A DNA stretch of 24,986 nucleotides from a virus. How positions within the stretch are numbered: the stretch's first letter is position 1; the number at the start of each line of letters is the position of its first letter. Made by a program: the position numbers and the translations under genes. The notes under the pieces were generated by a model. That model saw nothing but the letters and a program-made list of their open reading frames with translations, did no database searches and was not told the DNA's origin. Of this stretch, positions 3,474-23,233 are shown in pieces. Location of the stretch: the IMG/VR virus record IMGVR_UViG_3300020437_000052, positions 1-24,986 of that record; one strand, written 5' to 3'.

Positions 3474-3765
3474 CCAAGCAGAAAAGATTAGATCCATCAA
3501 CACCCCCGGATGGGATGGTGTAAATTCAACTGCAGACACAGTAAGGCTCAACAACCTATCTGAACAGCAGTCTATGGATCTTTTATACAAGCGGTGCTTT
3601 AGCACAGAAGCAGGGCAAGAAGTCCTAAAGCACTTACAATCAATAACAATAGATCAACCTTGTTGGATTCCAGGCGCAGATTCATCCTTTGGCTATAGCC
3701 GTGAAGGACAGAATAGCATTGTGCGTGAAATACAACAGAGACTAAAAAGGACAGAAGATGGATGA
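3466..3765 (+). CDS. Bbp19-like phage protein
   Basis: 99 residues. The core Y-K-R-C-F-S-T-E-A-G-Q-E-V-L-K-H-L, a middle with aromatic and proline residues, and G-Y-S-R-E-G-Q-N-S-I-V-R-E-I match the small Bbp19-like family commonly placed between portal and scaffold or capsid genes in podoviruses. Biochemical function is unknown; position suggests a head assembly or virion role. ATG 3466 overlaps the portal end by 8 bases, with A-A-G-G-A-C upstream. The gene overlaps the scaffold start by 8 bases, so the three genes are probably translationally linked. Confidence 0.8.
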   Translation: MANQAEKIRSINTPGWDGVNSTADTVRLNNLSEQQSMDLLYKRCFSTEAGQEVLKHLQSITIDQPCWIPGADSSFGYSREGQNSIVREIQQRLKRTEDG

Positions 3766-4570
3766 TAACAACATGGATAATCAGACAGCTGAACAGAACA
3801 GCGATCAAGATCAGGGTCTTATGGGTAAAGTGCAAGCTGCACAGCCTGAAAGCACTGATGTTAATGAAACCGAAATCCCGCACCTTGAAACAGAAGAAGA
3901 AGTAGAAGGTGATGATGACGGTCTGTATGTAAGACCAGACTTTATTCCAGAAAAGTTCTGGGATGAAAAAGAAGGGCCAGACATTGAAGGCATAATGAAA
4001 AGCCTTGGTGAACTAGAAAAGAAGTTCCACCGGGGGGATCACAAAGTGCCAGAACAGTACAACCTTGATGTGCTTTCTGAATACAATGTACCAGAAGATG
4101 ATGCGCTTCTTACTGGGTTTGTGGCATGGGCAAAGGAAAACAATGTTAGTCAAAAAGGATTTGATGACATTGTAGGGCAATTCGTTGGCATGTCTGGTGA
4201 TGCAGTGCAACAACAACAGGTTAATAGGGCAGATGAACTAAAGGCACTAGGCCCTAATGCTGACGCTATTATCAAAGGCAACAAGGACTGGATGGATGGT
4301 CTGGAGCGTAAGGGCATTATTAGTGAAGATGATTTAGCAGAACTTTACTTTCTTGGTGATGTAGCTGCAGGGCAAAGGGTAATTAGCAAGCTACGCCAGA
4401 TGAGTGGTGACATGACGCCTATTCCAACTACACCAACTGCAGAAGGCAGAATGTCTAATCAAGAATTCAAAGAACATGCTGCTGTATTAATGAATGATCC
4501 TAAGTATGGCACTGATCCTGTCTACACCAGAAATGTAGAAAAGGAATTCAATGAATACTATGGAACGTAA
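3758..4570 (+). CDS. Capsid assembly scaffolding protein
   Basis: 270 residues and strongly acidic, especially the first 60, which are rich in D, E and Q. It contains the R-P-D-F-I-P-E-K-F-W-D segment (about residues 53-63) that recurs in scaffold proteins of podoviruses and other phages, followed by helical charged stretches. Scaffolding proteins direct major capsid copolymerisation into the prohead and then leave. Its position between portal and capsid, its acidity and its length all fit. It begins inside the end of the preceding gene and is followed by the longest non-coding gap in the window. A protease or decoration role is unlikely, as no catalytic motif is seen. Confidence 0.88.
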   Translation: MDDNNMDNQTAEQNSDQDQGLMGKVQAAQPESTDVNETEIPHLETEEEVEGDDDGLYVRPDFIPEKFWDEKEGPDIEGIMKSLGELEKKFHRGDHKVPEQYNLDVLSEYNVPEDDALLTGFVAWAKENNVSQKGFDDIVGQFVGMSGDAVQQQQVNRADELKALGPNADAIIKGNKDWMDGLERKGIISEDDLAELYFLGDVAAGQRVISKLRQMSGDMTPIPTTPTAEGRMSNQEFKEHAAVLMNDPKYGTDPVYTRNVEKEFNEYYGT

Positions 4571-21470: not shown

Positions 21471-21746
21471 ATGGCAGTATGGAAAATTATACGAGAAACT
21501 AACAACAAAGGCACTATCTACAAAGATGGTGTTTCTTATGGGGATTTAGACATTAGCTGGCTACCTTCAACAATTAGGGTTGTGCAGGGGCAAAGCGATG
21601 GTTCTGCTTACTTGGAAAAGACAAACACAGAAACAGATTTTGTGGCTGATTTGTCAGCAGAAAGTTGGCACTCGAATGTGTCTGCAACATGGCAAGCTGC
21701 TGAAGATGCAGTGCAAAGTCCGCAACTATATGATGGGAGTGTGTGA
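21471..21746 (+). CDS. Small conserved phage protein after tail genes
   Basis: 91 residues. W-K-I-I-R-E-T-N-N-K-G-T-I-Y-K-D-G-V-S-Y-G-D-L-D-I-S-W-L-P-S-T-I-R-V-V-Q-G is a pattern I recall from small proteins near tail and fibre genes of marine phages, annotated as hypothetical. It is acidic and has no membrane segment. A-G-G-T-G-A-C lies at 21462-21468, with a short gap to the ATG. Its TGA overlaps the ATG of the following AT-hook microprotein (TGATG). A virion or assembly role is only suggested by position. Confidence 0.68.
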   Translation: MAVWKIIRETNNKGTIYKDGVSYGDLDISWLPSTIRVVQGQSDGSAYLEKTNTETDFVADLSAESWHSNVSATWQAAEDAVQSPQLYDGSV

Positions 21747-21859
21747 TGCCACACCTTTATGATCTTAACCCAAAGCTAAAAGGCAAGAAGCCTGAAGCAA
21801 AAACTAAACCTAAAGAAGAGCCACCTAAGAAGCGTGGGCGTCCAAAGAAAGTTAAGTAG
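21746..21859 (+). CDS. 37-residue lysine-rich microprotein with AT-hook
   Basis: Reads from ATG 21746, overlapping the previous stop by one base, to TAG 21857-21859. The protein is very basic, with 14 lysines; residues 28-37 are K-K-R-G-R-P-K-K-V-K, a textbook AT-hook core (R-G-R-P) that binds the minor groove of AT-rich DNA. The upstream half is a K/P/E-rich disordered tail. The TGATG junction suggests coupling with the preceding gene. Roles could include packaging-associated DNA binding or host nucleoid interference; both are inference. It is short, so translation needs proof, but the motif in a correctly phased frame is strong evidence. Confidence 0.68.
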   Translation: MPHLYDLNPKLKGKKPEAKTKPKEEPPKKRGRPKKVK

Positions 21860-22308: not shown

Positions 22309-22526
22309 CAGACTTCTTTAACAAATATATGCGCTTCAATCTAACTGCACGAATAACCATGATTGCATCTGTGATCATGTCATGGCGATGTGCAGAATGG
22401 TTCATGGAATTAGAAGATCCAACAACTGCTCAATCCGCGTTTGTATCGGTGGTCATGGGAATCATGAGTGGCATTTATGGATTGTATCTTGGCAAGGAAG
22501 CCAAGATAGATAAGGGGGGTAAGTGA
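22305..22526 (+). CDS. Two-transmembrane small protein, candidate holin or antiholin
   Basis: 73 residues with two predicted membrane helices, about 17-35 (I-T-M-I-A-S-V-I-M-S-W-R-C-A-E-W-F-M) and about 43-62 (S-A-F-V-S-V-V-M-G-I-M-S-G-I-Y-G-L-Y-L-G), and a basic tail. Size and topology suit a class II type holin or antiholin. ATGA overlap with the previous gene, A-A-G-G-G-T-G-G upstream; the stop overlaps the GTG start of the next, holin-like gene. The W-R-C-A-E segment within the first helix is unusual for a simple membrane anchor. The exact lysis role cannot be told from sequence. Confidence 0.7.
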   Translation: MTDFFNKYMRFNLTARITMIASVIMSWRCAEWFMELEDPTTAQSAFVSVVMGIMSGIYGLYLGKEAKIDKGGK

Positions 22527-22915
22527 TAAATTTATTAGGAAGTTTGGTTGGCCCAGTCACTGGGTTGCTAGACAAGTTCATCGAAGATAAAGATCAAAGG
22601 GCACGCCTTGCCCACGAAATTGCGACGATGGCAGAAAAGCAATCGCATGAACAAGTCATGGCACAGATCGAAGTATTGAAAGCTGATGCAAAGGGCAACT
22701 GGTTTCAATCAAGCTGGCGCCCGTTGATTGGATGGATATGCGGGCTGTCTCTTGGAATCAACTACATGGTATCGCCAATCATGGCAGGCTTTGGTATCAC
22801 CATACCGCAGGCTGACATGTCTGTAATGATGCCTTTACTTTTCGGCATGCTTGGAATCGCAGGCATGCGGAGCTATGACAAGAAACAAAACACAGACACA
22901 AAGGAGGTGAAGTGA
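22523..22915 (+). CDS. Holin of the GTA 3-TM type
   Basis: 130 residues from a GTG start at 22523 overlapping the previous stop as GTGA, with A-A-G-G-G-G-G-G-T at 22512-22520. The pattern fits the GTA-holin 3TM family: an N-terminal amphipathic segment (L-L-G-S-L-V-G-P-V-T-G-L-L-D), a helical charged middle, then W-F-Q-S-S-W-R-P-L-I-G-W-I-C-G-L-S-L-G-I-N-Y (about 61-82) and a second hydrophobic block M-S-V-M-M-P-L-L-F-G-M-L-G-I-A-G-M. Holins of this kind release gene transfer agents and phages by permeabilising the membrane so that a cytoplasmic endolysin can reach the wall. The endolysin gene lies 314 bases downstream and has no secretion signal, which fits. Confidence 0.88.
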   Translation: MINLLGSLVGPVTGLLDKFIEDKDQRARLAHEIATMAEKQSHEQVMAQIEVLKADAKGNWFQSSWRPLIGWICGLSLGINYMVSPIMAGFGITIPQADMSVMMPLLFGMLGIAGMRSYDKKQNTDTKEVK

Positions 22916-22916
22916 A

Positions 22917-23039
22917 ATGCCACAAGGCCCAGGCACTTATGGTTCTAAGGTGGGTAGACCACCAAAGAAACCAATGATGAAAACTGCAGCAATGCGGAAA
23001 AAAATGAAAAAGAAATATGGTAAAAAGAAGGAGGTGTAA
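22917..23039 (+). CDS. 40-residue lysine-rich microprotein
   Basis: ATG 22917 to TAA 23037-23039, preceded by A-A-G-G-A-G-G-T-G-A at 22901-22910. The start M-P-Q-G-P-G-T-Y-G-S-K-V-G-R-P-P-K-K recalls short phage proteins whose G-R-P-x-K-K segment resembles a degenerate AT-hook; the C-terminus K-K-M-K-K-K-Y-G-K-K-K is strongly basic. The same M-K-K-K-Y-G-K-K octapeptide closes the next gene. The function is unknown; nucleic-acid or membrane-surface binding are plausible given the charge. The near-perfect ribosome binding site and correct phasing make it a real gene with good probability. Confidence 0.72.
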   Translation: MPQGPGTYGSKVGRPPKKPMMKTAAMRKKMKKKYGKKKEV

Positions 23040-23041
23040 GT

Positions 23042-23233
23042 ATGGCAAAACAACCTGGTTTGTATGCCAACATTCACGCGAAGCGTAAGCGAATTAAGGA
23101 AGGTAGTGGGGAAAAGATGCGCAAGCCCGGCGAAGCTGGTGCGCCTACTGCCAAGGCTTTTAGGCAGTCAGCAAAGACTAGCTTGCGTAACAAGATGAAA
23201 AAGAAGTACGGCAAGAAGCGACAGTACGCATGA
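23042..23233 (+). CDS. 63-residue basic phage protein
   Basis: Sequence opens M-A-K-Q-P-G-L-Y-A-N-I-H-A-K-R-K-R-I, then G-S-G-E-K-M-R-K-P-G-E-A-G-A-P-T-A-K-A-F, a pattern that recurs in short basic phage proteins of unknown function, from memory. It ends with N-K-M-K-K-K-Y-G-K-K-R-Q-Y-A. A-A-G-G-A-G-G-T-G at 23028-23036 serves as Shine-Dalgarno, and the TGA overlaps the endolysin ATG as ATGA, so it is probably expressed with the endolysin. No membrane segment; highly positive charge. A DNA- or virion-associated role is inference. Confidence 0.8.
   Translation: MAKQPGLYANIHAKRKRIKEGSGEKMRKPGEAGAPTAKAFRQSAKTSLRNKMKKKYGKKRQYA

Follow-up and report, generated by a model that had tools for sequence, protein, structure and literature searches.

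Two adjacent microprotein genes of a marine phage, ORF1 and ORF2, encode proteins with unrelated N-terminal parts and one common basic tail close to the C-terminus. Comparison of related sequences indicates that this tail was added, in one clade, to two widespread and previously undescribed marine-phage families, since most members of either are without it, and that within the clade both proteins keep it at the protein level. In one lineage (L335) the tail is seen to change in step in the two proteins, and in another (L338) it is found joined to a third N-terminal module. ORF1 and ORF2 are small, strongly basic and probably nucleic-acid-binding late proteins of a podovirus-like marine phage, and the leading, still tentative explanation of the tail is a shared docking helix that would give such microproteins a single partner, the packaged DNA and/or the prohead interior.

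Gene context

The window (the whole stretch of DNA that was analysed) comprises an entire IMG/VR virus record, 24,986 bases long, whose portal-like protein finds its nearest counterpart among the phage records searched in Methylophilales phage MEP301 (54.5% identity). Directly upstream of the portal-like gene lies a gene for a DUF6321 protein (1622-1909; Pfam E 3.2e-22), and the PHROG families of this protein often adjoin ORF2 homologues in other phages. The local order around the two microproteins is a 37-38 aa AT-hook-like ORF, proteins of 148 aa and 73 aa with predicted membrane segments, a holin, ORF1, ORF2 and a lysozyme. The holin gene (22523..22915, + strand) encodes a 3-TM protein assigned to GTA_holin_3TM (Pfam PF11351, E 2e-19) and to the holin family phrog_3427, while the phage lysozyme/endolysin (23230..23676, + strand) matches Pfam PF00959 (E 1.7e-13). 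Between them, also on the + strand, lie ORF1 (22917..23039; 40 aa, net charge +13), composed of an N-terminal module, a variable linker and the basic tail, and ORF2 (23042..23233; 63 aa, net charge +17), composed of a phrog_16028 domain, a short linker and the basic tail; the ORF2 stop overlaps the lysozyme start (ATGA). A Shine-Dalgarno-like AAGGAGGTG, read from the sequence, stands 5' of both genes, each time within the last codons of the preceding gene: at 22901..22909 (+ strand) in the 3' end of the holin gene, and at 23028..23036 (+ strand) inside the last ORF1 codons (K-E-V), before ORF2 starts at 23042.

Because ORF1 and ORF2 lie in a lysis cassette, a disruptin-like role (disruptins as defined in PMC12819732) can be envisaged, in which both would be cationic peptides that attack the outer membrane after holin and endolysin, with the tail as a membrane-active helix. 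This role is considered unlikely. The order holin, ORF1, ORF2, endolysin parallels the position of the disruptin phiKT gp28, likewise a small cationic peptide of a lysis cassette, between endolysin and holin, and a simple scan of the + strand beside the window's cassette returned no spanin-like lipoprotein ORF, although the window is a fragment and spanins may therefore be encoded elsewhere. Similarly, ORF2 homologues were found in six of 79 scanned holin-retrieved loci (L417, L437, L448, L456, L459 and L488), and an ORF1 homologue follows the holin in L156; yet the six ORF2 homologues all lack the tail. Moreover, phiKT gp28 has long hydrophobic stretches and a charge of +7, whereas ORF1 and ORF2 are not hydrophobic and carry +13 and +17. 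The hydrophobic face of the tail appears to be small (hydrophobic moments 0.34-0.54, mean hydrophobicity about -0.3), and the ORF2 family occurs mostly with terminase, portal and DUF6321 genes.

The shared tail

Re-reading of the sequence confirmed that MKKKYGKK is encoded at 23004-23027 (ATG AAA AAG AAA TAT GGT AAA AAG) and again at 23195-23218 (ATG AAA AAG AAG TAC GGC AAG AAG), with synonymous differences in four of the eight codons. The initial annotation had described this peptide as a C-terminal octapeptide; it does lie near the C-terminus, but ends 3-4 residues short of it in both proteins, being followed by one K and then KEV in ORF1 and by RQYA in ORF2. The octapeptides form part of longer tail modules, AAMRKKMKKKYGKK in ORF1 (22989..23030, + strand) and TSLRNKMKKKYGKK in ORF2 (23180..23221, + strand), and the likeness reaches upstream, with 10 of 14 residues identical between AAMRKKMKKKYGKKK and TSLRNKMKKKYGKKR. 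The longest exact peptide common to the two proteins spans nine residues (K + MKKKYGKK), a length reached by none of 100,000 shuffles of both proteins (maximum 7). The N-terminal parts are indeed unrelated, as first proposed: a profile comparison aligns the tail columns only, with a probability of 1.5%.

The codon differences had also been taken as a sign of selection, a conclusion that does not hold. Two unrelated codings of MKKKYGKK are expected to differ at about 3.6 codons, as computed from the window's own codon usage, so that the four differences observed match random expectation and argue only against a recent copy, through either saturation or independence. Within one genome, the ORF1 and ORF2 tails stand at near-random synonymous distance (4/8 to 8/9), indicating no recent exchange between them. 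A recent tandem duplication of ORF1 and ORF2 is ruled out by the unrelated N-termini together with the saturated synonymous sites. Selection on the peptide itself thus draws no support from the codon pattern, whereas the comparative data do point to a tail kept at the protein level.

Distribution of the tail

To define relatives independently of the tail, IMG/VR was searched with the lysozyme as query. Lysozymes of at least 65% identity were found in eight contigs (L120, L335, L336, L337, L338, L339, L368 and L362), and a repeat IMG/VR search with a lysozyme alignment added no further clade member. The complete ORF1-ORF2 locus is present in six of the eight, and in all six both proteins carry the tail; L339 starts inside ORF2 and retains the ORF2 tail, and L362 starts inside the lysozyme. 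The clade is small, comprising three groups only: the window with L120, L335 and L336; L337 with L338; and L368 with L339. L120 is identical to the window across ORF1, ORF2 and lysozyme. At the remaining loci of the IMG/VR lysozyme search the script reported no ORF1 or ORF2, and 11 lysozyme relatives in the genome collection, each of at most 43% identity, had no ORF1/ORF2-type or tail ORF reported.

The tail consensus is roughly [LM][RKQ]xK[ML]K[KRE]K[YF]GKK. In the aligned lineages, the N-terminal parts and the tails of both proteins are conserved and the linkers are not. Averaged over pairs drawn from four lineages, L335 being excluded because of its closeness to the window, identity amounts to 0.92 for the N-terminus, 0.20 for the linker and 0.80 for the tail of ORF1, and 0.81, 0.50 and 0.90, respectively, for those of ORF2. 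AF2 modelling predicts helices at residues 9-19 and 37-56 of ORF2 with modest confidence (pLDDT 78.5, pTM 0.45) and one at 21-38 of ORF1 with low confidence (pLDDT 73.1, pTM 0.26). The ORF2 tail would form the C-terminal half of its second helix, which stops at the Tyr before Gly; the predicted ORF1 helix passes the Gly, to residue 38.

The ORF1 and ORF2 families

The N-terminal module of ORF1, MPxGxGTYGSKVGRPxKK, has an AT-hook-like GRP core and no Pfam or PHROG match. It defines a family of widespread marine phage microproteins that start with MPxGxGTYGSKVGRP, usually run out in lysines and are often unannotated. All 27 of the ORF1 proteins aligned have GRP, partly by construction, the rows having been retrieved or picked with GTYG..GRP patterns. 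AT-hook proteins of the HMGA type possess a short basic peptide with a GRP core and flanking lysines. The GRP core of ORF1, flanked by basic residues, resembles this arrangement and may likewise bind AT-rich DNA, with the difference that ORF1 has V before GRP. Neither ORF1 nor the AT-hook-like ORF at 21743-21856 matched any Pfam family at E up to 10, including the AT-hook model (PF02178), which is short and insensitive.

Residues 4-50 of ORF2 correspond to positions 3-49 of the 50 in the phrog_16028 profile (E 1.2e-26), with the signature PGLYANIHAKRKRI..GSGEKMRKPG..GAPTAKAF..SAKT, and the profile stops where the ORF2 linker and tail begin. Relatives of ORF2 occur in 138 phage records, none spanning 80% of the protein, and among the matches listed all end before the tail; the domain is also found within larger phage proteins. 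A profile search of ORF2 against solved proteins returned a best E of 1.9, and its model had no match in the PDB; matches in BFVD were mostly to its own family, some of them within larger phage proteins, along with insignificant ones. A literature search found GTYGSKVGRP, YGSKVGRPP, GLYANIHAK and DUF6321 in no paper of the collection searched, and for KYGKK the matches listed were plant WRKY papers.

The tail was present in none of 80 ORF2-family (phrog_16028) loci, the best 80 of at least 600, and in none of 120 ORF1-family loci among the matches listed, implying that it is dispensable for the general role of either family. Absence of the motif from orthologues of both proteins, which the initial annotation would have read as chance or simple lysine-rich convergence, is therefore the case outside the clade and not inside it. 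The two families adjoin in many phages, in either order, with 30 distinct pairs of which six come from the tail clade. In the 24 neighbour pairs outside the clade, tail sharing was not significant (p = 0.097), leaving a general habit of ORF1/ORF2 pairs unsupported. The ORF2 family is usually located among head and packaging genes, with upstream neighbours of the DUF6321 type in 21 of 76 cases, a large terminase in 12 of 76 and an endolysin in 2 of 76, and a portal gene downstream in 19 of 71; in the tail clade, both genes instead lie in the lysis cassette, away from head genes.

Changes of the tail within the clade

Both proteins of L335 have MKKKFGKK in the tail. Relative to the window, the codon has changed from TAT to TTT in ORF1 and from TAC to TTC in ORF2, and Phe is most simply the derived state, as both proteins of the other lineages have Tyr. 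The synonymous differences beside the Phe codons are unchanged, making conversion implausible; gene conversion was ruled out for this change, as the tract would be about 3 bases. Across ORF1 and ORF2, L335 departs from the window at just four amino acids, the two substitutions among them; if each protein underwent two random amino-acid changes, an identical substitution at the corresponding position would arise with a probability of 0.003, a value that applies to one event judged after the fact. Phe is also present in many similar peptides, and Tyr and Phe alternate in the tail-like peptides of unrelated proteins.

Between its ORF1 and ORF2, L338 contains an additional gene of 64 aa, with an unrelated N-terminus, the tail SLQKKLKKKYGKRK and the C-terminal end SLQKKLKKKYGKRKEV. 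Over the N-terminal 42-45 residues its product is similar to proteins from Roseobacter phages CRP-902 and CRP-207 (58-60% identity), and the CRP-902 counterpart ends in KKKAKK, without the tail. One tail is thereby carried by otherwise unrelated co-encoded small proteins with three N-terminal modules in L338 and with two in the other five full-locus contigs. The third protein shares an exact peptide of eight residues with L338 ORF1, a length reached by 1 of 50,000 shuffles, and one of just four residues with L338 ORF2 (12,715 of 50,000 shuffles); L338 ORF1 and ORF2 share six (192 of 50,000). At the codon level, the third tail shows no synonymous difference from window ORF1 (0/8) and 2/10 from L368 ORF1, compared with 6/8 from L338 ORF2. 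Since its codons follow ORF1-type and not ORF2-type tails, recombination with the 3' end of an ORF1-type gene probably brought the tail to this new N-terminal module.

These observations bear on a further reading, in which the tail and the Shine-Dalgarno would together mark a DNA cassette boundary, a gene-end joint for microprotein gene swaps, and the peptide would be mainly a by-product. The codon choices of the third gene, suggestive of descent from an ORF1-type 3' end, favour such a joint, as does the distribution of gene ends in L338: the inserted gene, which abuts ORF2, carries the KEV/Shine-Dalgarno end, and ORF1, no longer adjoining ORF2, ends in KASY. The near-random synonymous distance between the ORF1 and ORF2 tails of one genome nevertheless speaks against it, and the parallel Tyr-to-Phe change of L335 cannot be conversion beyond a few bases. 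As an account of the tail it is even less likely than the lysis role.

Motif frequency and possible convergence

The exact MKKKYGKK occurs in 50 IMG/VR stretches, compared with 81 for the scrambled MKKKGYKK, so that it is ruled out as a motif enriched in phages globally. In 10 of the 50 loci the peptide sits C-terminally in a small ORF, as it does in none of the 80 control loci read; it is thus its placement, rather than its frequency, that is unusual. At least two small ORFs ending in K[KRE]K[YF]G[KR][KR] were found in 16 loci in addition to the window, many of them re-fetches of the same contigs, and in no locus with the scrambled motif. A broader tail scan returned, among the matches listed, mostly unrelated proteins.

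The second most likely reading is lysine-rich convergence without a common partner, which is possible, though less so than docking: both proteins are basic, the 3' ends of their genes can double as ribosome-binding sites, and a short basic helix that stops near Tyr-Gly would be an easy and common ending for such a protein, adding non-specific nucleic-acid affinity only. It owes its rank to the lack of enrichment over the scramble and to the recurrence of the peptide in other small-protein families, 34 of the 50 exact loci belonging to one unrelated family (VFYAS). The similar tail of a further microprotein (L508), the use of the last ORF1 codons as the ORF2 Shine-Dalgarno, and the Tyr/Phe alternation in unrelated proteins all fit convergence as well. 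Against this, sharing is restricted to neighbouring, co-encoded proteins within a single clade, where it is without exception, the Tyr-to-Phe change occurred in parallel in one phage, the Shine-Dalgarno spans only the last residues and not KKKYGKK, and the scrambled motif yielded no locus with two such small ORFs.

The VFYAS family (among loci L084-L133), mostly of about 38-56 aa, follows the pattern KGxKIMxxMKKKYGKKxxxxVFYASxNKGxIKGV, and a scan of one member found no match in Pfam or PHROG. The L508 microprotein (498-623; MPGHYG...) has the tail ALRQKAKKKFGKKK and lies directly upstream of DUF6321-like and portal-like genes.

A proposed shared docking helix

In the docking reading, a free linker joins the conserved N-terminal module of each protein to the common C-terminal tail, which as a basic helix would dock all of the microproteins on the same partner. 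A tail that is common to different N-terminal modules and changes in step suggests one common partner, and the head and packaging context of the ORF2 family, together with the GRP core of ORF1, points to nucleic acid; packaged DNA and/or the prohead interior would be the most likely site, among candidate partners that include virion proteins, DNA, RNA and membrane. Specific functions, such as AT-rich DNA binding by the ORF1 GRP core, would fall to the N-terminal modules. A bolder and more doubtful extension, which also ranks behind convergence, is that marine phages assemble microprotein clusters from interchangeable short basic modules and that in this clade all basic microproteins of the cluster, the newly inserted one among them, received one and the same C-terminal docking tag. 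The tag would co-evolve across the proteins as a result of their common docking site, and the cluster would form a multi-part DNA-condensing or DNA-delivery kit.

The capsid-targeting sequence (CTS) of phage T4 is N-terminal and is removed by the prohead protease. As described in PMC3012670, T4 internal proteins are diverse and have little in common beyond the CTS, and their lysines contact packaged DNA. The resemblance lies in several otherwise diverse small phage proteins bearing one short common peptide; it is formal, and the ORF1/ORF2 tail is C-terminal whereas the CTS is N-terminal. If the tag does send proteins into heads, it would be the C-terminal equivalent, in marine phages of the podovirus-like kind, of the T4 CTS, and might serve as a peptide for loading cargo. 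More generally, a tag common to unrelated microproteins offers a handle on the many very small phage genes, and finding its partner may reveal where the widespread GTYGSKVGRP and phrog_16028 families act.

Other observations

ORF1 of the window (22917-23036) differs from its L336 counterpart (3688-3807) at 0 of 120 nucleotides, while ORF2 differs at 10 of 189 positions and the lysozyme at 26 of 444, a contrast that hints at either a recent exchange or constraint at the DNA level.

The AT-hook-like microprotein upstream of the holin (21743-21859, + strand, ATG at 21746; 37-38 aa; MPHLYDLNPKLK...PPKKRGRPKKVK) has a classical-looking AT-hook core and the C-terminal end PPKKRGRPKKVK. It recurs in L335, L336, L338 and L368 with M[PA]HLY[DE]LNPxLK, the relatives keeping the GRP core while the remainder has diverged.

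Several basic modules (GTYG, GLYANIHAK, HKMPNGxLHT, AQHRLM and DUF6321) appear either as standalone microproteins or fused in varied combinations, as seen at L145:3197-3466, L078:1866-2150, L045:1420-2109 and L236:6749-6922, suggesting that marine phages shuffle short basic modules.
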